DNA from: Eubacteriales bacterium
GTDB lineage: Bacteria > Bacillota > Clostridia > Lachnospirales > Lachnospiraceae
Direction of reading: 5' to 3'
Length of the DNA stretch: 64,000 bases
Assembly (NCBI GenBank): GCA_030526005.1
Contig: JAUNDP010000008.1
Coordinates: 1 to 64,000 of the forward strand
A program made the position numbers and the translations under genes. Positions 48,349 through 56,859 of this stretch are shown here, in pieces. The notes beneath the pieces were generated by a model, which saw only the letters and a list, made by a program, of their open reading frames with translations, had not been told where the DNA came from and did no database searches. Within the stretch, counting starts at the first letter, position 1; each line of letters starts with the position of its first letter.

Positions 48349-49010
48349 CTCAGTCTATATCCCTCCCCTATCTTTGTCTGAATTGGATCATATCCCAGAA
48401 CATTTTTCAATTTTTTGCGCATCGCAGACAGATGCACTCTCACAGAGTTGCTGAACGGGTCAGAATCTCCATTCCATACATGGTCAATGATCTCCTGCTG
48501 TGTGATCAGCCGTCCTTGATTTAAAAGAAAATATTCTAAAATCGCAGTCTCTTTTGCGGTAAAAAAGACATTCTCCCCTTTTACTGTAACACATCTGCTA
48601 AATGTATCCATGGAGATGTCCTGATACGTCAGATGACTTGGCGACTGCACAAATCTGCGGTTCAGCAGAACGCGTATACGCGCCTCAAGTTCTTCAAAAT
48701 GAAACGGCTTCGTCAGATAGTCGCTCGCTCCGAGCTGAAATCCGGCAAGTTTCGTCTCCAGATGATGATTGGCTGACAAAATCAAAACCTTTGTCTGCGG
48801 CTTCTCCTCTTTCAACCTTTCTAAAATTTCCAGCCCATCCATTCCAGGCAGATTCAAGTCTAAAATGATCAGATCATACGTTTCATCCATCGCCATCTGA
48901 TATCCTTTCATCCCTGTTTCTGCCTGATCCACAGCATACCCTTTCCAGGTCAATCCTTTCGCCAGATCACATAAAAGTTCCTGTTCATCTTCTATAATCA
49001 AAATCCGCAT
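48345..49010 (-). CDS. OmpR-family response regulator
   Basis: The 221-residue regulator has a receiver with phosphoacceptor Asp51 (LIILDLNLPG), acidic pocket IEDEQ, and the conserved Lys in YLTKPF, followed by a winged-helix DNA-binding domain (TAKETAILEYFLLNQGRLITQQEI and SNSVRVHLSAMRKKL). The start at 49010 follows GGGAGACAGACAG. It precedes the kinase gene. Confidence 0.93.
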   Translation of the reverse strand: MRILIIEDEQELLCDLAKGLTWKGYAVDQAETGMKGYQMAMDETYDLIILDLNLPGMDGLEILERLKEEKPQTKVLILSANHHLETKLAGFQLGASDYLTKPFHFEELEARIRVLLNRRFVQSPSHLTYQDISMDTFSRCVTVKGENVFFTAKETAILEYFLLNQGRLITQQEIIDHVWNGDSDPFSNSVRVHLSAMRKKLKNVLGYDPIQTKIGEGYRLR

Positions 49011-49053
49011 CTGTCTGTCTCCCTTCTGAACATACAACATTTGATCTATAACA

Positions 49054-49890
49054 TTACACTTTTTCTCCGTTTTTTATACTTTTTATGTGACCTTCCGTCT
49101 CTTTTTTAAATTGTTCAAACAGATCCTCAATCGCATCAAATTCATAGTCCGGGACAAATCTTGTATTTTTCACGTCTTCCCTCGTCGCTTCTCCCGTATA
49201 AACGACGCATGTCTCCACTCCCGCTGCGATTCCGCACGCAATGTCCGTGTACAGCCTGTCTCCGATCACAATCGTCTCTTCCACTGAAAATTTTGTCAGT
49301 TCCAGACAGTAATTCACAACCTCTTTGTCTGGTTTTCCCAGATACCTTGGACTTTTTCCCGTAGAATTTTCGATCATCTGGCAGATCGATCCGCAGTCTG
49401 GTATAAATCCGAAAGGCGCCGGACAGCACAGATCCGGATTTGTCGCCAGATATGGGATATTTTCTTTCGATAAAATTTCACAGACACGCTCCAGCTTTTC
49501 ATATGTCAATTCACTGTCATATCCAACCAGAACACACGCAATTCCCTCCTCCACACATTGTGTGACGAGAATTCCCTGCTCTCTCAGATTTTTTATAAAC
49601 GATGCCGTCCCCATGACAAAAATCTTTTTTCCTGCAAAGTTCTCTTTCAGATACTGCGCCGCAATAAAACCAGATGTGACAAACTGCCATTCTTCCGTTC
49701 TCAGATTCCACCCTTCAAATTTCTTTACATAATCTTCTGTACTCTTCGTCGAATTATTCGTAATATAGATTGCTTTTCCTCCGACTTTCTCAATCAGCTC
49801 AAGCAGTTCCTTCGTTCCCCTATACAATTTATTTCCCGTTGCAATCGTCCCGTCGATATCAAATAAAAATAATCTTTTGTTCTTCAGCAT
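49054..49890 (-). CDS. HAD-IIA family hydrolase (NagD/PNPase-like)
   Basis: The 278-residue phosphatase has motif I LFLFDIDGTIATG, motif II YITNNSTKS, and motif III/IV GKPDKEVVNYCLEL with VIGDRLYTDIACGI. The cap is the large C2a type of HAD-IIA (NagD, pyridoxal or p-nitrophenyl phosphatases). No partner gene shows the substrate. It is about 44 bases upstream of the response regulator gene. Confidence 0.88.
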   Translation of the reverse strand: MLKNKRLFLFDIDGTIATGNKLYRGTKELLELIEKVGGKAIYITNNSTKSTEDYVKKFEGWNLRTEEWQFVTSGFIAAQYLKENFAGKKIFVMGTASFIKNLREQGILVTQCVEEGIACVLVGYDSELTYEKLERVCEILSKENIPYLATNPDLCCPAPFGFIPDCGSICQMIENSTGKSPRYLGKPDKEVVNYCLELTKFSVEETIVIGDRLYTDIACGIAAGVETCVVYTGEATREDVKNTRFVPDYEFDAIEDLFEQFKKETEGHIKSIKNGEKV

Positions 49891-50086
49891 AATTTTCCCC
49901 TGATCTTTTTTCTGTTTTCTTTGCTTATTTTAATACAGCGCCGTTTCTGTGTCTATCTTTATTCTTCGATCTTTTTCAGGGAAAAACAGAAATACGCTCC
50001 CCAGATTTTTGACTTTCGTCAGGAAAAATGACTGTAAACATCTTGATCTTGTCTGTCTTCTGCCTTTTGCCAGGTGATCCAAAATT

Positions 50087-50671
50087 TTATTTTCCCAGAG
50101 TGGAAGCGTATGCGATCATACCATCCTTTATTGCCTGCGCTACTTTTGTCTGATATTCCTCGGACATTAAAAGTTGTGCTTCCCTCTGATTACTTAAAAA
50201 TCCACACTCCGCAATCACAATCGGACTTTCCGTCTTTCTCAGAATATAATAGCTGTCATTTTCTTTGATCTCCCTGCACCTTGCCACTTCCAGCTCCTTG
50301 TTCAGAGACTCCTGTATCACAGCTGCCAGTTTCCGTCCCGTATCGGAATGAGAATAGTAAAATACCTGCGATCCCTGCACGCTCTCATCCGGATAACTGT
50401 TCTGGTGAATGCTGACTGTAAACAGCGGATCTGCCTCGTTTATCTTCTCGCATCTTTTCTTCATATCCTGCTGCTTTTTGCTTCCGCTGCCCTCATCGTA
50501 CAGTCCCCCGTCTTCCTCTCTCGTCATCACAACGGTAAATCCTTCTTCCTCCAAAAGAATCTGCAGTTTTTTGGCGATTGCAAGATTAATCTCCTTTTCT
50601 TTCGCTCCATTGACACCGATCTTTCCGGGATCATCTCCGCCATGGGGCGGATCTAAGATGCGCAAAGCCAT
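50087..50671 (-). CDS. cwlD: 3' part of the spore cortex amidase CwlD with a new start
   Basis: The 194-residue product is an N-acetylmuramoyl-L-alanine amidase (Amidase_3) with the four zinc ligands His10 (PPHGGDDPG), Glu25, His89 (TVSIHQN) and Glu155 (AECGFLSN). It matches clostridial CwlD from just after the first strand. It lacks the signal anchor and the first beta strand; the missing piece, ending VIDAGHGG, is encoded at 53650-53850. The new N-terminus MALRILDPP happens to restore a plausible strand. It starts 12 bases after the Spo0A-like gene, so it may be translated with it. If active, it would be cytosolic. Confidence 0.8.
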   Translation of the reverse strand: MALRILDPPHGGDDPGKIGVNGAKEKEINLAIAKKLQILLEEEGFTVVMTREEDGGLYDEGSGSKKQQDMKKRCEKINEADPLFTVSIHQNSYPDESVQGSQVFYYSHSDTGRKLAAVIQESLNKELEVARCREIKENDSYYILRKTESPIVIAECGFLSNQREAQLLMSEEYQTKVAQAIKDGMIAYASTLGK

Positions 50672-50683
50672 GTCGTTGATCCG

Positions 50684-51130
50684 TCACTGCAAAAGTACAT
50701 CCGTATCCTTTTCCACTTTTTCTAAGAGCCAGTCCAGCAATTCCATATAAACTTGTTTTTTCAACTCGATTCTCTCTCTGCTGTACGCAGCATTTTTTTC
50801 TGAAAATCGCCCGTTATTCTGTCGGGTCTTCAAATATAATGTTCTTAAGAGATTTGAATTCTGCGTATTGGAAAGATCTAGATATCGTTTCAGCTGATCT
50901 TCATCCCCTTTTTTGATCGCTGTCACAAACGCATGGCGGATCGCACGTTCTACTCTTGAAGAAGTGCTGTCTCTTTTCTTTGCAATCTCATGATACAAGA
51001 CGCCAATTTTACCCCCTGCATAATATGGATCTTTATCGAACATTTCCATCGCATCACAAATATAAGTAAATCCCTTTGTTCCCGCCGGAATTCCTATACT
51101 CAGCAATACGTCTACTATATTCATATCCAT
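50684..51130 (-). CDS. Receiver-less Spo0A DNA-binding domain protein
   Basis: The 148-residue protein matches the C-terminal domain of Spo0A and has no receiver domain. Its start resembles the domain boundary (VDVLLSIGIPAGTKGFTYICDAM), and the recognition helix SSRVERAIRHAFVTA (57-71) is nearly as in Spo0A. A helical C-terminal extension (about 90-148) follows. It may bind 0A-like boxes and interfere with or bypass Spo0A. It shares an operator with the XRE gene and lies just upstream of the cwlD fragment, both inside the cwlD interruption. Confidence 0.82.
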   Translation of the reverse strand: MDMNIVDVLLSIGIPAGTKGFTYICDAMEMFDKDPYYAGGKIGVLYHEIAKKRDSTSSRVERAIRHAFVTAIKKGDEDQLKRYLDLSNTQNSNLLRTLYLKTRQNNGRFSEKNAAYSRERIELKKQVYMELLDWLLEKVEKDTDVLLQ

Positions 51131-51192
51131 GATTAAAATCCTCTCTTTCCTTTTCCTATATCACATTATGCCACGATATATATGTCGTGACC

Positions 51193-51260
51193 ATTATATG
51201 TTTTATCGCAACATTTGTCAACATATCTTTGTTGACAACGCATCTATTTTGCCGTATTAT
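51193..51260. promoter_or_regulatory. Divergent consensus promoters sharing one palindrome
   Basis: The inverted repeat TTGTCAAC (51215-51222) and GTTGACAA (51231-51238) contains both -35 elements. To the right, TTGACA (51232-51237) and TATTAT (51255-51260) are 17 bases apart. To the left on the minus strand, TTGACA (51216-51221) and TATAAT (51193-51198) are also 17 apart. One bound regulator could control both genes. The TTGTCAA core also resembles a 0A box. Confidence 0.8.
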
Positions 51261-51341
51261 AAAAGTATTGTAAAAGCTGAGCAATCCGCTTTAACCTTAT
51301 ATGACAGCTTCAGGAAATTGGGAAAAAAGAGGTAAAAAAAT

Positions 51342-51713
51342 TTGAAAGATCGAATAAAACTTATCAGAAAAAACGCTGGTTTAACCCAGCAGGAATTTGC
51401 CAGTAAAATCGGGGTGTCGAGAAATACGATCGCTACTTATGAGACAAGTGTGCGTATTCCGATTGATGCAATCGTAAAATCGTTATGTCGGGAATTTGGT
51501 GTCAATGAAATATGGCTGCGCACCGGCGAAGGCAATATGTATTTGGAGACAAGCCCTGACCTGGCGCTTTCAAAATGGTTCGGTCATCTGCTTCGTGAAA
51601 ATCCCGATTCTTTTAAAAAACGTTTTGTCATGACACTTTCCAGATTATCGGACAGCGAATGGCATGTGCTTGAAAAAATGATTGACACGCTGCATTCAAA
51701 AAAAACGGAATAG
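51342..51713 (+). CDS. XRE-family repressor-like regulator
   Basis: The 123-residue protein has a canonical helix-turn-helix (MKDRIKLIRKNAGLTQQEF, then IGVSRNTIATYETSVRIP) and a helical tail with LSDSEWHVLEKMIDTL. The start is TTG, preceded by AGAGGTAAAAAAAT. Its promoter overlaps the palindrome that also covers the divergent Spo0A-like gene, so it is probably autoregulated and represses its neighbour. This layout is typical of small regulatory switches. Confidence 0.88.
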   Translation: MKDRIKLIRKNAGLTQQEFASKIGVSRNTIATYETSVRIPIDAIVKSLCREFGVNEIWLRTGEGNMYLETSPDLALSKWFGHLLRENPDSFKKRFVMTLSRLSDSEWHVLEKMIDTLHSKKTE

Positions 51714-51778
51714 AGCAAAGAATTTCGCAAAGCGTTTTCTCTTCGCAGCAAATGATATTCTCTGTTAAAGTTAAAAAA

Positions 51779-51802
51779 GAGCGGTTTTTATACCGCCCTT
51801 TT
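51779..51802. terminator. Weak terminator between the XRE and esterase genes
   Basis: GCGGT (51781-51785) pairs with ACCGC (51792-51796), with T residues after on the plus strand and an A-run before. It serves two convergent genes. Confidence 0.5.
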
Positions 51803-51813
51803 CTGATTCTTTT

Positions 51814-53334
51814 TTATTTTGACTGTGCATTCATCCATGCAAAGAGATTTGTATACTCTCCAGCTGGCAATGTTCCGCCGCCTTCATTTGTAGGAGTTGT
51901 TCCAAATGTTTCATTATCTGTTGAAGCGACAATCGCTTCTTTGTCCTGAACTCCTGTCACCTGATTATTCAGCACATAAACCCATGAGAAATGTCCCATA
52001 TAAGTTGCATCCGGACTGTCTGTTCCGACAACGGATTCATACAGAGACAGCCAGCTGTTTTCAGATCCTGCCTGCACAAGCGCACGATATGTAGGAAGTG
52101 CAAATGCTTTTGGATCTACTACAGGGTCATCGACTGACAATACAAACCAGATCGGAATGTCTTTGATTGCTTCTATCTTTTCTTCTGACATCCATCTTTC
52201 TCCTGTCAGCTCAAATGCAGAAGTTCCCATTCCTGCCTCTTCATTTTTCTTATAAGTTCCATCTTCATTTCTGGCATACTCATCAAACGCATATGCCTCA
52301 CAGATCGGGTAAGCTGCCGCAAAATAGTCTGGATAGTTCACAAGCATATTGACCGTCATATAGCCGCCGTTTGAGCATCCTCCCAGATAGATACGATTCG
52401 GGTCTACATCCGGATTGGCTTCTACATAATCTTTGATTGTGTCCATTAAAATCTCTGTGTATCTTGAGACGCCGCTTCCATTTCCATTCGTTCCGTCTCC
52501 TTCATCCATCCAGTAGGTCTCGCACTGAACAGCAAGAACGTAGCTTCCCACTTCCTCACCTGCTGTGAAGTAAGACTGAATTTCTTCCCTTGCAAGTGCG
52601 CACACTTCATTGCCGAGAATCTCGATGTCAGGATCTGTGCCGCCTTCCCCCTGTCCGTGCAGCCAGATCACCAGAGGATTTTTCTCTCCGCCTGCAATGT
52701 CTTCCGGCTCATATGCCGCTGTGCGCAGTGTAACTTCTTCTTCCTCTCCGGTAAAATGATTCAGATACGTTCCTGTGAAAGAATCTCTGTTTGAAAATCT
52801 CTCTGTGTCAGGACAGATACGGTTTTCAATACAGTCTTTTTTTAATGAAATTTTGTATGCTGTTCCGTCCACTGTGAAATTTTCACACTCTACAGATACT
52901 TCATACGTCTCCGCCCATTTGTTCATCATCACAGACATATCATATGTGAATGGCGATCCGGATACCTGATAGGTTGTCTCCATCTCAACAGCCACATACT
53001 TGGAAGCTCCTTCTGCTTTTTCCCCGTTCTCATCGCACAGATATACGTCTTTGACGGTACGCTCTGTTCCGGCAGTCACAACTTTGCATCCCTCTGCACT
53101 GACCTCAGATGCTTCCTCCTGTAATTCTAAAACAATTTTAGGAACTCCTGGTCCCCATTCATATCCCTGTACAAAAATAGATGTTCCTGCAATTATACCC
53201 GTTTCTTCAGAAGCTTCTGCTGTTGTTGCATCTGGCACTGTGGCATCTGCCTCTGTTGCAAAAGATACCATGGATGTCGCTCCCAATGCGAGACATCCTG
53301 CTGTCAAAAAGGCCATCAATTTTTTTCTGTTCAT
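51814..53334 (-). CDS. Secreted serine esterase/hydrolase
   Basis: The 506-residue protein has a signal peptide (MNRKKLMAFLTAGCLALGA...) and an alpha/beta hydrolase domain. The oxyanion region is LVIWLHGQGEGG and the nucleophile elbow GGCSNGGYM; a SVDDPVVDPKAF segment (Asp) and MGHFSW (His) are candidates for the rest of the triad. This resembles the PHB-depolymerase/feruloyl-esterase-like enzymes of gut Clostridia. The N-terminal 170 residues form a separate beta domain. AAAGGGGGAAATACA supports the start at 53334. The substrate may be plant or host ester material; not proven. It lies within the cwlD interruption. Confidence 0.8.
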   Translation of the reverse strand: MNRKKLMAFLTAGCLALGATSMVSFATEADATVPDATTAEASEETGIIAGTSIFVQGYEWGPGVPKIVLELQEEASEVSAEGCKVVTAGTERTVKDVYLCDENGEKAEGASKYVAVEMETTYQVSGSPFTYDMSVMMNKWAETYEVSVECENFTVDGTAYKISLKKDCIENRICPDTERFSNRDSFTGTYLNHFTGEEEEVTLRTAAYEPEDIAGGEKNPLVIWLHGQGEGGTDPDIEILGNEVCALAREEIQSYFTAGEEVGSYVLAVQCETYWMDEGDGTNGNGSGVSRYTEILMDTIKDYVEANPDVDPNRIYLGGCSNGGYMTVNMLVNYPDYFAAAYPICEAYAFDEYARNEDGTYKKNEEAGMGTSAFELTGERWMSEEKIEAIKDIPIWFVLSVDDPVVDPKAFALPTYRALVQAGSENSWLSLYESVVGTDSPDATYMGHFSWVYVLNNQVTGVQDKEAIVASTDNETFGTTPTNEGGGTLPAGEYTNLFAWMNAQSK

Positions 53335-53649
53335 TGTATTTCCCCCTTTTTTTAATTTAAGCGCCCACTTCAAACCGTGTACGGACTCATCAGTGGGGAG
53401 TTTCCTCTGTACAGCATATCCTTCCTCTCTATCAAAAACGATCAAAAACAAAACGTGACTCACCCCATCGGATATCCTGTATTTCGCTCATGACAGTACC
53501 CAAAACATAAACTGCCTGATTGTATCAAACAATTCAGACAGTTTATGGCTTGCGGTCTGTACCTTTTCAGTATATCCCGTTTTTTTCTGTTCGTCAAATA
53601 TTTTTCGTATATTTTATCTAATATTTTATTCTTTTTTTATATTTTTCAG

Positions 53650-53850
53650 TCATTTTATACATACTCTATTTTCTCCCTTTTGCCTCATTCTTCCTCCCCC
53701 GTGCCCTGCGTCAATCACAACCACCTTTTTTTCTTCTTTCTGCATCATAACTGTCTGAACGGTCTTTTTCAATCCCATTGTTGACAGTATAGCGACTGCC
53801 AGCAACAGTACCATTCCCATCCACATTTCCCATTTCTTTTTTTCTCTCAT
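53650..53850 (-). pseudogene. cwlD: 5' fragment of cwlD (signal anchor and first strand)
   Basis: The 66-residue frame starts with MREKKKWEMWMGMVLLLAVA, a signal anchor, and continues KKVVVIDAGHGG, the first strand and zinc-binding His of Amidase_3. It then leaves the family at GRMRQKGENRVCIK and stops. The remainder of CwlD resumes at 50645 on the same strand (HGGDDPGKIG). AAGGAAAGATA precedes the ATG. It is the detached front of the split gene and cannot be an amidase by itself. Confidence 0.8.
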
Positions 53851-53977
53851 TATCTTTCCTTTTTCTGTCTCTCTTTTTTATAGTTTATCCGTGTTTTCCC
53901 TGATTTATCACACATTTTTTCTTTTCGCACTGTCTTTTTGGTCTTCGCATCTTTGCACAAAGTCAGGTGAAATGCGC

Positions 53978-54006
53978 TTGAGAATCGTATGGAACAATGA
54001 TATAAT
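53978..54006 (+). promoter_or_regulatory. Promoter of yitT
   Basis: TTGAGA (53978-53983) and TATAAT (54001-54006) are separated by 17 bases. Confidence 0.65.
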
Positions 54007-54060
54007 AAAAGTACTCTATTTATACTTTTTTAATAATTTACATACTATCAGGAGGATTTT

Positions 54061-54906
54061 ATGGTTAATAAAATCAAAGAATTTATTCTTTTAACTGTCG
54101 GTATCCTGATCATGGTTGTCGGCATTTATTTCTTCAAATTTCCAAACAATTTTTCCTTTGGAGGAGTGACCGGTATCGCAATCGTCGTTTCCGAATATCT
54201 CCCTATTTCAAGAGGTGTCATCACAACCATCATCAACGTTGCCCTCCTGATTATCGGCTTTCTTTTGCTTGGAAAGGGATTTGGCATTAAGACTGTTTAT
54301 ACCAGTCTGCTCATGTCCTTCGGGTTGTCCTTTCTGGAAAAATTCTGCCCGATGACACATCCTCTGACCGACGAAGTAATTCTGGAACTGGCTTTTGGTA
54401 TCTTCCTTCCTGCTGTGGGATCTGCTCTCCTGTTCAATATCGGCGCTTCCAGCGGCGGAACGGATATCGTGGCAATGATTTTGAAAAAATATACGAGCAT
54501 CAATATCGGAAATGCCTTGCTCCTGACGGATCTGATCATTGTGGCAGCGACCTTCTTTGTATTTGATATCAAAACAGGTCTTCTCTCCACACTCGGTCTT
54601 TTCGTCCGTTCCTTTATGATTGACGGTGTGATTGAAAATATTAACCTTCAAAAATACTTCACTGTTGTGTGCAGCGATCCTGAACCGATCTGTGATTTTA
54701 TCACGCTCGATTTGGGCAGAAGTGCAACTGTCTGCGAAGGGATCGGAGCTTTTTCACATGACAAAAAATATGTAATCTACACGGTAATGAGCCGTGCCCA
54801 GGCAGTGCGCCTGCGTTCTTTCATTCACGTTCAGGACCCTTCTGCCTTTATTCTCATCTCAGATACAAGTGAGATTATCGGAAAAGGTTTCCGAGGTTAC
54901 CATTAA
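54061..54906 (+). CDS. YitT family membrane protein
   Basis: The 281-residue protein has five or six membrane helices (about residues 1-170) with the family motif FGGVTGIAIVVSEYLPISRG and NIGASSGGTDIVAMIL, and a cytosolic DUF2179 domain (about 195-281) with the ALRSFIHVQDPSAFILISDTSEI-like segment. The function of YitT proteins is not known; a transporter is likely. AGGAGGATTTT precedes the ATG. A strong bidirectional terminator follows. Confidence 0.88.
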   Translation: MVNKIKEFILLTVGILIMVVGIYFFKFPNNFSFGGVTGIAIVVSEYLPISRGVITTIINVALLIIGFLLLGKGFGIKTVYTSLLMSFGLSFLEKFCPMTHPLTDEVILELAFGIFLPAVGSALLFNIGASSGGTDIVAMILKKYTSINIGNALLLTDLIIVAATFFVFDIKTGLLSTLGLFVRSFMIDGVIENINLQKYFTVVCSDPEPICDFITLDLGRSATVCEGIGAFSHDKKYVIYTVMSRAQAVRLRSFIHVQDPSAFILISDTSEIIGKGFRGYH

Positions 54907-54967
54907 AAAAATACTGCTGCAGTCTGCATCTCTCACAATGAGATCTGCTTTCTGCAGCAGTATTTTT
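54907..54967. terminator. Bidirectional terminator between yitT and the GH18 gene
   Basis: A 16-base arm 54907-54922 (ending TACTGCTGCAG) pairs with 54952-54967. A- and T-runs flank both sides. Confidence 0.85.
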
Positions 54968-54972
54968 ATTTT

Positions 54973-56658
54973 CTACGATATGTATTTCAAGATTATATTC
55001 CAGACAGATGGCTCTTCCAATCCAAGCTTCCATCCTGCGATTCCGCCAAGCTCATATTCCTGTACCAGTTTTGCTCTTGCCTCGACAGATTTGTCATTTT
55101 CCAGCCATACCTGATACAGCGATCCATCGCTTCCTGTCCACTGCGCGTAATCCTGTCCTGCGCTTTCATCCCATACGATCTCCGCTCCGGCTTCTTCCAC
55201 CGCATTTTTCGCCGCAGCCATGCTGACCGCCTCACTGGAGATATTGCCCTCTGAATCTGTATTCCAGATCCGCACATAAAATGGAATGGCATTGATTACT
55301 TTATTGGACGGAACTTGAGCTACCGTATCATTCACACCGTTTGTGACAAAATCCATAGTCGCCACAGAACCCACATCAGAACCGGCATAATGCTCATCAT
55401 ATCCCATGATAATCACATAATCTGCGACAATTCCCTGTTCTTCTCTGTCATAATGCGCCGTATACGGCTGCGGAACAGGATTGTCAACGGATAAGATGAT
55501 CTCGTTCACTCTGCATTTTATGGACATTTCTCTGATGAACTGAATATAGTCGTCGCCTGCTGATTCTGGTATCGTCTCAAAATCAATATTGATTCCATCC
55601 AGTTTGTACTTGAGCGCTTCCTCGATCAACTGGTCCTGAATATTTTTTCTTGCACTCATAGAAGACAGAACCGTCTCGGTATCCACAGCCGTATTAAAAT
55701 TGTCAATCAGCCCCCATACCTGCATTCCGCTTTTATGCGCTGTTGTCACATACTCTTTGTCTGCGAGAGAGGAAATATTTCCTTCGTTGTCTATAATCGA
55801 AAACCAGGTCGGAGAGATGACATTGACTCCTTCCACTTCGGAGATATCACTTTTCAGGCTGTCATTTGCATCTGCATTTGTGACTTGATGCCACACCAGA
55901 TTAATCTTTTCATCCTGAGTCAGACTTGTATAGACAGGCTCTTTGAAATCAGGAATCTCAAGTGTTGTCTGACTCTGTTCTCCCAGAGTATTATTTCTGA
56001 CATATCCCAGATATCCGTCCTTGGTCAGCACTTTTGTCCAGTCTTCCATCACATCCACGATCATCACCACATCGCCTTTGCTGACTTTCGTTAGAATCGG
56101 ACTTTTTATTCCTCCCTGAAAGCGCACGCTTGTACTTTTCTTCATCTCGGCAGCCGTCTGCGGTTCTTTCTCATAGCGAATCACTGCCCTGTTTGGCTCT
56201 TCCAGAAGATCATACTCCATAAATGTAAATTTCTTCACAAATTCAGCATCCAGGTAACGCAGATCCCCTTCCTGAAATGCAATCACATATTCTTCCGTCT
56301 TCTTTTCATCATTTACGGTATATTCCTTGCTCTCAAGCGGAATCTCATACAGCTCTGTCGGCGTTGTAAACAAAAACAAATCTGCACTTTCATCCCAGTA
56401 AAATCGTTTATTCAGATATTCCTGCACCGCCTCATGTTCCAGATAAAGTCGTTCATCTCTCAGCAATCCTTTGTAGCGCACAAGCTGATCCTGCATAATC
56501 AATGCCGTCTCCTCTCCCTGCACGTCAAAATATTCCTGCTGCTCCATCCATTTATTGGACGGAATGTACCGGCTCACGATCCTTCCAAGCACGGCTGCCG
56601 CCGCAATTACGATCAATGCGGAAATAATGGGAAACACGATCCTGCGTTTCTTTTTCAT
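54973..56658 (-). CDS. Glycoside hydrolase family 18 protein with SH3-like domain
   Basis: The product of about 561 residues has a signal anchor (about 6-26), an SH3-like wall-binding region near residues 195-235 (SKGDVVMIVDVMEDWTKVL) and a GH18 barrel from about 250. The catalytic motif is LDGINIDFETIP with the catalytic Glu present, and the last barrel strand is GGIAGWKLGLEEP. Family members include spore cortex or wall hydrolases (SleL/YaaH) and chitinase-like proteins. Several starts lie close (GTG, ATG, ATG); I choose 56658, with GGAGG seven bases upstream. Context does not define the substrate. Confidence 0.85.
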   Translation of the reverse strand: MKKKRRIVFPIISALIVIAAAAVLGRIVSRYIPSNKWMEQQEYFDVQGEETALIMQDQLVRYKGLLRDERLYLEHEAVQEYLNKRFYWDESADLFLFTTPTELYEIPLESKEYTVNDEKKTEEYVIAFQEGDLRYLDAEFVKKFTFMEYDLLEEPNRAVIRYEKEPQTAAEMKKSTSVRFQGGIKSPILTKVSKGDVVMIVDVMEDWTKVLTKDGYLGYVRNNTLGEQSQTTLEIPDFKEPVYTSLTQDEKINLVWHQVTNADANDSLKSDISEVEGVNVISPTWFSIIDNEGNISSLADKEYVTTAHKSGMQVWGLIDNFNTAVDTETVLSSMSARKNIQDQLIEEALKYKLDGINIDFETIPESAGDDYIQFIREMSIKCRVNEIILSVDNPVPQPYTAHYDREEQGIVADYVIIMGYDEHYAGSDVGSVATMDFVTNGVNDTVAQVPSNKVINAIPFYVRIWNTDSEGNISSEAVSMAAAKNAVEEAGAEIVWDESAGQDYAQWTGSDGSLYQVWLENDKSVEARAKLVQEYELGGIAGWKLGLEEPSVWNIILKYIS

Positions 56659-56859
56659 CATCACACCTCCGTTGTCGCCTCTGGCGACAATTCAATTTGA
56701 TGCTATTATATCATGAAAATACCATATGTAATTACATTCTTCGACATCTTAAGAAATTCCTAATCTAATACGTTTCCTCTTTAGGACCGGATCTGTCTGC
56801 GACCTGTAAAAATTTTCAGCTTCATACTCTGTTTTACGCACTGGAGGACTTTGCAGGGG

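Follow-up and report, generated by a model that had tools for sequence, protein, structure and literature searches.

A recombinase-free insert splits cwlD in three species of a Lachnospiraceae genus and is probably a skin-like element excised in trans

The cwlD locus and its insert

The DNA analyzed here, a window of 64,000 nucleotides from a Eubacteriales bacterium of the Lachnospiraceae (assembly GCA_030526005.1, contig JAUNDP010000008.1, positions 1 to 64,000), contains the gene for the spore cortex amidase CwlD in two pieces. A sequence-only reading of this window had proposed that about 3.06 kb interrupts cwlD and that the two pieces lie on the same strand and in the correct order. Both proposals were borne out: the reverse-strand open reading frame (ORF) 53850-53650 translates as MREKKKWEMW...VVVIDAGHGG, the reverse-strand ORF 50671-50087 continues with a product containing PPHGGDDPGKIG, and the gene is uninterrupted at most of the other loci described below. 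The split histidine codon yields a CA core at either end (53703-53702 and 50644-50643), the CA-to-CA distance is 3059 bp, and joining the pieces at CA restores one open frame in the window genome (G000) and in the two other species that make up our genus sample (G001 and G002).

53702..53850, minus strand: 5' part of cwlD, with 49 codons ahead of CA, encoding the signal anchor and the first strand as far as the His codon (within ORF 53850-53650)
50087..50644, minus strand: 3' part of cwlD, beginning at the His codon and encoding the Amidase_3 domain (listed as ORF 50087-50671)
50645..53703: putative intervening element of the non-autonomous kind, without a recombinase, its two CA cores 3059 bp apart
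54973..56664, minus strand: GH18/SH3 protein gene, whose homologue adjoins cwlD in many relatives

The joined product scored 208.1 bits against the CwlD family TIGR02883 and the 3' half alone 199.9 bits, below the cut-off of 221.55 bits, yet this was the best family for both. Seven intact relatives also fell short (195.2-212.9 bits), so the cut-off seems strict for these bacteria. The identification as cwlD is thus a probable one, based on best family match and on a gene neighborhood in which the GH18/SH3 gene supports it by position; its role in the spore is presumed from the family.

In all three species cwlD is split at the same codon, and an esterase gene follows directly after the 5' half. 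Three independent assemblies therefore share the split, and an assembly error, which the sequence-only reading had raised as a possible objection, was rejected. Between species the 49-codon 5' half gave pN/pS values of 0.26-0.39 and the 3' half 0.19-0.23, at pS of 0.59-0.83, as compared with 0.20-0.25 for the flanking HAD gene and 0.08-0.12 for the flanking YitT gene. Purifying selection acts on both halves throughout the genus, and a simple loss of cwlD function is for this reason not favored.

Outside the window we examined 35 loci, 29 returned by a homologue search (from 44 other matching genomes) and six from named contigs. The frame upstream of HGG runs through from an N-terminal stretch in 30 of these, so the halves are not normally independent genes, a second objection that had been anticipated. 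It is cut at HGG in the remaining five (G001, G002, G029, G034 and L040); the 5' half was located in four and was not found on the contig of G029. G177 has one more cwlD interrupted at HGG. The joined CwlD had a match at E<=1e-30 in 252 of 397 family genomes, and among the matches listed those of G201 and G167 also begin at HGG.

The imperfect 10-base match that had been reported at the two junctions is present and begins at the crossover core (CACGGGGGAG on the N side, CATGGCGGAG on the C side, minus strand). Taken alone it is weak, because longer repeats occur nearby by chance: of the 31 direct-repeat families in the 5.5 kb around cwlD, 20 were listed and all of these are longer. We therefore set it aside as stand-alone evidence. 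What places the split above chance is its recurrence at the same codon, in all three species of the genus and in other genera, together with the half-site ranks given below.

The insert measures 3059 bp in G000, 6584 bp in G001 and 1960 bp in G002. A domain scan of its three proteins in G000 found no recombinase domain, in agreement with the earlier claim that none lies inside, and its contents (esterase, XRE regulator and Spo0A_C protein) include no conjugation or transfer genes. The insert of G001 additionally carries another esterase-like gene and genes for a GHKL kinase and for regulators of the AraC and LytTR types; nothing besides the esterase was noted in that of G002.

51814..53334, minus strand: secreted esterase (EstA Ig-like domain and alpha/beta hydrolase), the sole cargo gene common to all three species, pN/pS 0.18-0.20
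53569..53597, minus strand: predicted sigma-A-like promoter of the esterase, TTGACG-N17-TATACT, shuffle p 0.12 (0.025 in G001 and 0.01 in G002 at the aligned place)
51342..51713, plus strand: XRE-type regulator, among the three species in G000 only
50684..51130, minus strand: orphan protein with the C-terminal (DNA-binding) domain of Spo0A, among the three species in G000 only

The product of 50684-51130 consists of the Spo0A DNA-binding domain alone, sited within the cwlD insert.

Two further split genes and shared attachment half-sites

A search for PF07508, the domain specific to large serine recombinases (LSRs), gave a single match in G000, on contig 44, and nine matches each in G001 and G002.

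G000:C44:23658-25163: LSR, 502 aa, with Resolvase, Recombinase and zinc-ribbon domains, all three over the Pfam cut-offs

This gene sits inside a second amidase gene (amidase 2), interrupted between MAKIVIDPG and HGGKDPGAVYEGRQEK, whose joined product has an Amidase_3 plus SPOR architecture like that of CwlC. Amidase 2 is split at the same codon by an LSR-bearing insert in G000, G001 and G002 (1773, 1647 and 1551 bp, respectively), with little content beyond the LSR, and no other LSR has a position common to all three species. The LSR frame of G002 continues from the amidase's own start. On the element side of the G000 junction the codon is CAG (Gln), and a crossover at CA would give the joined gene back its histidine. 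Among solved structures the best relative of the LSR was the TnpX catalytic domain (2mhc, E=2.4e-26), SprA (YokA) of SPbeta also being among them, and XisF appeared as a family match below the family cut-off.

Matches to the LSR at E<=1e-120 were found in 20 of 299 sampled family genomes (the LSR of G002 is known from the PF07508 search). Nine of the 20 adjoin an amidase 3' half (G000, G001, G029, G034, G148, G166, G167, G177 and G223), and one (G250) lies beside an amidase 5' half on the opposite strand. Five adjoin pdaB-like pieces (G028, G031, G083, G132 and G289), two of these identified by family scan and the rest by motif, and beside the other five (G018, G108, G121, G195 and G201) no target gene was recognized in the stretch read. 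Pairwise identity is 88% among the LSRs of G029 and G177, which lie in cwlD, and of G166, which lies in amidase 2, and the three make up one clade (100/99). A separate clade (100/100) unites the LSRs from the window's genus, whose identity to this group with known amidase targets is 48-53%. At cwlD in G029 and G177 the LSR kin lie on contigs with a VirB4-type AAA_10 ATPase, accompanied in G029 by a lysozyme/NlpC_P60 protein, and the ancestor of the element may have been an integrative and conjugative element (ICE). In G148 (locus L125, contig C5, 11800-16450) amidase 2 is split by a 4640-bp insert holding an LSR and a gene whose 897-aa product begins with a signal-like sequence.

It was these LSR relatives in other genera that brought up the third interrupted gene, one for a pdaB-like deacetylase. 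The break falls at the same codons in G000, G001 and G002 (core TG; FDAAWG / WGNEDT in most) and is filled by inserts of 1740 bp in G000, 2388 bp in G001 and 1553 bp in G002, which hold two ThrE-type genes (called by Pfam for G001 and by likeness for G000 and G002); no LSR is present in this first pdaB-like insert in any of the three. We call the gene pdaB-like because the cut-off of the PdaB family TIGR02764 (237.4 bits) was not reached: the 3' part from G000 scored 194.7 and that from G031 204.9, both being pieces. A second interruption near the PPYG codons leaves the gene in three pieces in L155 (G001:C164) and L156 (G002:C37), whereas this place is uninterrupted in G000. The inserts at this second place carry LSRs of another type, L067 and L072, which are sisters (100/100), and belong to a further system. 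The LSRs of G289 and G132 at pdaB-like genes were rejected as users of the same site type since their arms differ.

Joining at the core is in frame at all six amidase loci and at all three first pdaB junctions. The element ends of the nine inserts (three genes in three species) are mirrored half-sites with the consensus CGCA-N14-core-N14-TGCG, which in cwlD and amidase 2 reads CGCA-N14-CA-N14-TGCG with few departures. At -18 the word is CGCA in eight elements and CGCT in the ninth, and at +15 it is TGCG in seven, whereas in 2000 sets of random anchors the best word was shared by only four of nine. The two half-sites of an element also mirror each other, with a summed identity of 111/234 against a null mean of 53 and maximum of 81 (0/5000). 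Outside the genus, 14 C-side arms have at -18 CGCA (six), CGTA (two), CGCT (one), CACA (two) or another word (three: L040, G289 and G132), and TGCG stands at +15 in three of five N-side ends, the exceptions being L040 and G250.

53682..53703, minus strand: N-side junction, core CA (53703-53702) and 20-nt half-site CGGGGGAGGAAGAATGAGGC, with TGAG where most have TGCG
50643..50664, minus strand: C-side junction, half-site (CGCA at -18) and core CA (50644-50643)

We then scored the cwlD junctions with a matrix built solely from the 12 half-sites at amidase 2 and pdaB, with cwlD left out of the training. Among 127,960 positions of the window the C-side junction ranked first and the N-side junction second, and their pair came first. 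The pair also came first in G002, where the junctions ranked 1 (N) and 9 (C) of 38,962.

Proposed excision in trans and competing explanations

We consider it likely, at roughly three chances in four, that the cwlD insert is a non-autonomous skin-like element, which an LSR encoded elsewhere removes in trans as the cell sporulates. It lacks a recombinase, its ends correspond to those at two further split genes, and one of these houses a recombinase, so that a single enzyme probably rejoins all three. By this proposal the insert, placed at a codon for a zinc-ligand histidine in CwlD, would end in the two halves of a serine recombinase attP-like site with core CA, and the LSR of contig 44, encoded inside the amidase 2 element, would be the enzyme that fits this half-site type. 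In sporulating cells, most likely in the mother cell, it would recombine the two CA cores, removing its own element from amidase 2 in cis and those of cwlD and the pdaB-like gene in trans, presumably with the help of a directionality factor, and excision would restore the reading frames. The genes cwlD and those of the amidase 2 and pdaB types are mother-cell genes in Bacillus subtilis, which would explain why loss of the cargo costs little. Because the mother cell dies while the spore keeps the unexcised genome, cargo inside a spore gene would come at little cost, and growing cells could make use of cargo such as the esterase. We also lean, with some reserve, toward the wider proposal that one recombinase, encoded inside one of the genes that it targets, coordinately reassembles cwlD, the Amidase_3 plus SPOR amidase and the pdaB-like gene in the dying mother cell, which would amount to a multi-locus, trans-acting programmed rearrangement with active-site codons as attachment sites. 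As core and codon are common to cwlD and amidase 2, recombination between the two would be in frame and chimeric amidases would be possible.

Several observations weigh against this proposal. No excised form of the cwlD insert was seen. Signals of sporulation sigma-factor promoters were sought ahead of amidase 2, the LSR and cwlD, and none was consistent across species when compared with shuffles, the esterase's sigma-A-like promoter being the only one with some support, and a scan of eight small ORFs near related LSRs for a directionality factor found no Pfam family over the cut-off. With nine LSR matches each in G001 and G002, the assignment of the enzyme is less certain there. Both TGCG misses fall at the trans loci of G000 (TGAG at cwlD and AGAG at pdaB), and the PdaB-like products of G000 and G001 are without the HSxxH-type histidines retained in G002; given these worn words and lost histidines, parts of the system may be in decay in some species. 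In G001 the held-out matrix placed the C-side cwlD junction first and the N-side junction 35th among 35,960 positions, and it did not recover the true pair, because the N half-site fell under the score floor. The likeness of the half-sites may in part reflect common descent. Finally, known skin-type elements carry their own recombinase (PMC6957869), unlike the inserts of cwlD and, at its first interruption, pdaB.

The best surviving alternative is that cwlD was inactivated, in the ancestor of the genus, by an old element that then lost its recombinase, leaving the halves as remnants, perhaps with a relaxed need for cortex germination. The insert without a recombinase, the two worn half-sites of G000 and the altered histidine motif of the PdaB-like products would all fit such decay. 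So would the lack of an intact cwlD elsewhere in G000, a third objection anticipated by the sequence-only reading: its four Amidase_3 matches are two 3' halves and two whole genes of other types, and no second intact cwlD was found among them in an assembly that is 95% complete in 68 contigs. We nevertheless regard decay as unlikely, since both halves are under purifying selection at the pS values given above, in three species their frames stay open as far as the junction, and the half-sites are retained. The spore genes of G000 also argue against it, as SpoIVA, a small acid-soluble spore protein (SASP), a GerA protein and sigK (matched above its cut-off, starting at profile position 24) are all present. 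In G001 a GerA match was not found and SpoIVA consists of two contig-end pieces; the apparent splits of SASP and SpoIVA there were rejected as further cases, the matches sitting at contig ends.

Excision by another recombinase, such as the LSR of a visiting element or one missed in the assembly, or excision outside sporulation control, appears less probable still. The incompleteness of the G000 assembly and the many LSR matches of G001 and G002 leave room for such an enzyme, but the LSR of amidase 2 alone keeps its place in three species, the half-sites recur at its own ends, and relatives of it use cwlD in other genomes.

We think it very improbable that the 3' piece is a separate gene and the 5' piece a small membrane protein, with no rejoining. 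The catalytic domain does lie within the 3' piece, and the new start proposed for it by the sequence-only reading exists in G000 as an ATG at 50671, nine codons before HGG. Such a protein would however be without the signal anchor, and the starts are not conserved: in G002 a stop codon stands just before HPSHGG, so that no usual start translates the 3' half with its first histidine. In each of the three species, moreover, the 5' piece stops with the first half of the active-site motif.

Rejoining at the RNA or protein level, by an intron, trans-splicing or an intein, would also suit two conserved halves in order on one strand, but it can practically be dismissed, there being no Rfam match at gathering thresholds in 49000-55500, no intein or intron-protein domain among the three insert proteins, mirrored half-sites of the recombinase type and LSR genes at the same codon elsewhere.

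Relation to known elements and to other genomes

The cwlD insert resembles skin in sigK and its kin (vfbin, SPbeta in spsM, phi3T in kamA and yin in yabG) in interrupting the coding frame of a spore gene, proposed here to be rejoined, as those are, by a serine recombinase, and in having junction attachment sites that share a core and form inverted repeats, the N side of G001 being the weakest case. It differs in that three genes have one site type and that excision is here a proposal made from sequence. Skin-type elements occur nearly always in mother-cell genes, and the split genes carry elements with a cognate recombination unit, according to PMC6957869. The amidase 2 element agrees with this rule in carrying its own recombinase, and the cwlD insert does not, for which reason we call it a non-autonomous variant.

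The gin element in gerE of Bacillus cereus ATCC10987 is likewise a non-phage element in a spore gene with a serine recombinase and attachment sites of imperfect inverted repeats around a central dinucleotide; it spans 28.6 kb and has three recombinase genes and a directionality factor, in the account of PMC5595907, whereas the cwlD insert has 3.06 kb and none of these. A directionality factor is to be expected for such excision, going by PMC5595907 and PMC5025042. Small ORFs at L154:6719-6928 and beside the LSRs in L060, L103, L114, L155 and L156 have, by eye, a common look (Tyr-x-Val/Ile-x-Arg ... Glu-Glu-Leu ... Ile-Ile). The small ORFs of this kind, among them one of 69 aa within the pdaB insert of G000, are possible candidates for directionality factors.

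The heterocyst interruption elements in nifD, fdxN and hupL share with our proposal a programmed excision from a gene in a terminal cell, and the smallest of them barely hold their recombinase (PMC4874684); one of their recombinases, XisF, is the below-cut-off family match of the LSR noted above. They belong to another phylum and cell type, and the survey in PMC4874684 followed elements via the recombinase gene that they contain. TnpX/Tn4451-type elements and LSR-bearing ICEs are akin through the LSR itself, by its best solved relative and by the VirB4-type ATPase near its kin in G029 and G177, but the cwlD insert has no transfer genes and the positions are fixed across the genus.

In a literature search of titles and abstract openings, with few subscription journals and no preprints, none of the papers listed described an interrupted cwlD, cwlC or pdaB, or a recombinase shared by several spore genes. 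The spore-gene rearrangements described involve one element, its own recombinase and one gene. Here the LSR lies in one split gene and two others seemingly provide sites only, and three steps of spore-wall formation would therefore depend on one enzyme. If true, this would show mobile elements losing autonomy and becoming an obligatory network, and would offer nine natural sites for the study of serine recombinase specificity, together with a direct prediction that could be tested in gut commensals. All three genes would be annotated as broken, so the sporulation potential of such genomes may be misjudged.

Two arrangements in other genomes resemble parts of this system. In L040 (JAMPFR010000008.1, an Acetatifactor muris metagenome-assembled genome, 5117-8001) the same cwlD codon is interrupted, here by 2.9 kb of DNA that has other arms and encodes a distant LSR and a PIN-domain protein. 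The distant LSR and the arms led us to reject it as a member of the same system, and it is probably of separate origin, an independent use of the same codon. In G201 a cwlD 3' half lies at a contig end (L121, contig C8, reverse strand), and the stretch before it resembles, by eye, a broken LSR gene; an entire LSR gene is found on a different contig, C14, where no neighboring amidase was seen. This arrangement perhaps represents another stage of autonomy loss.

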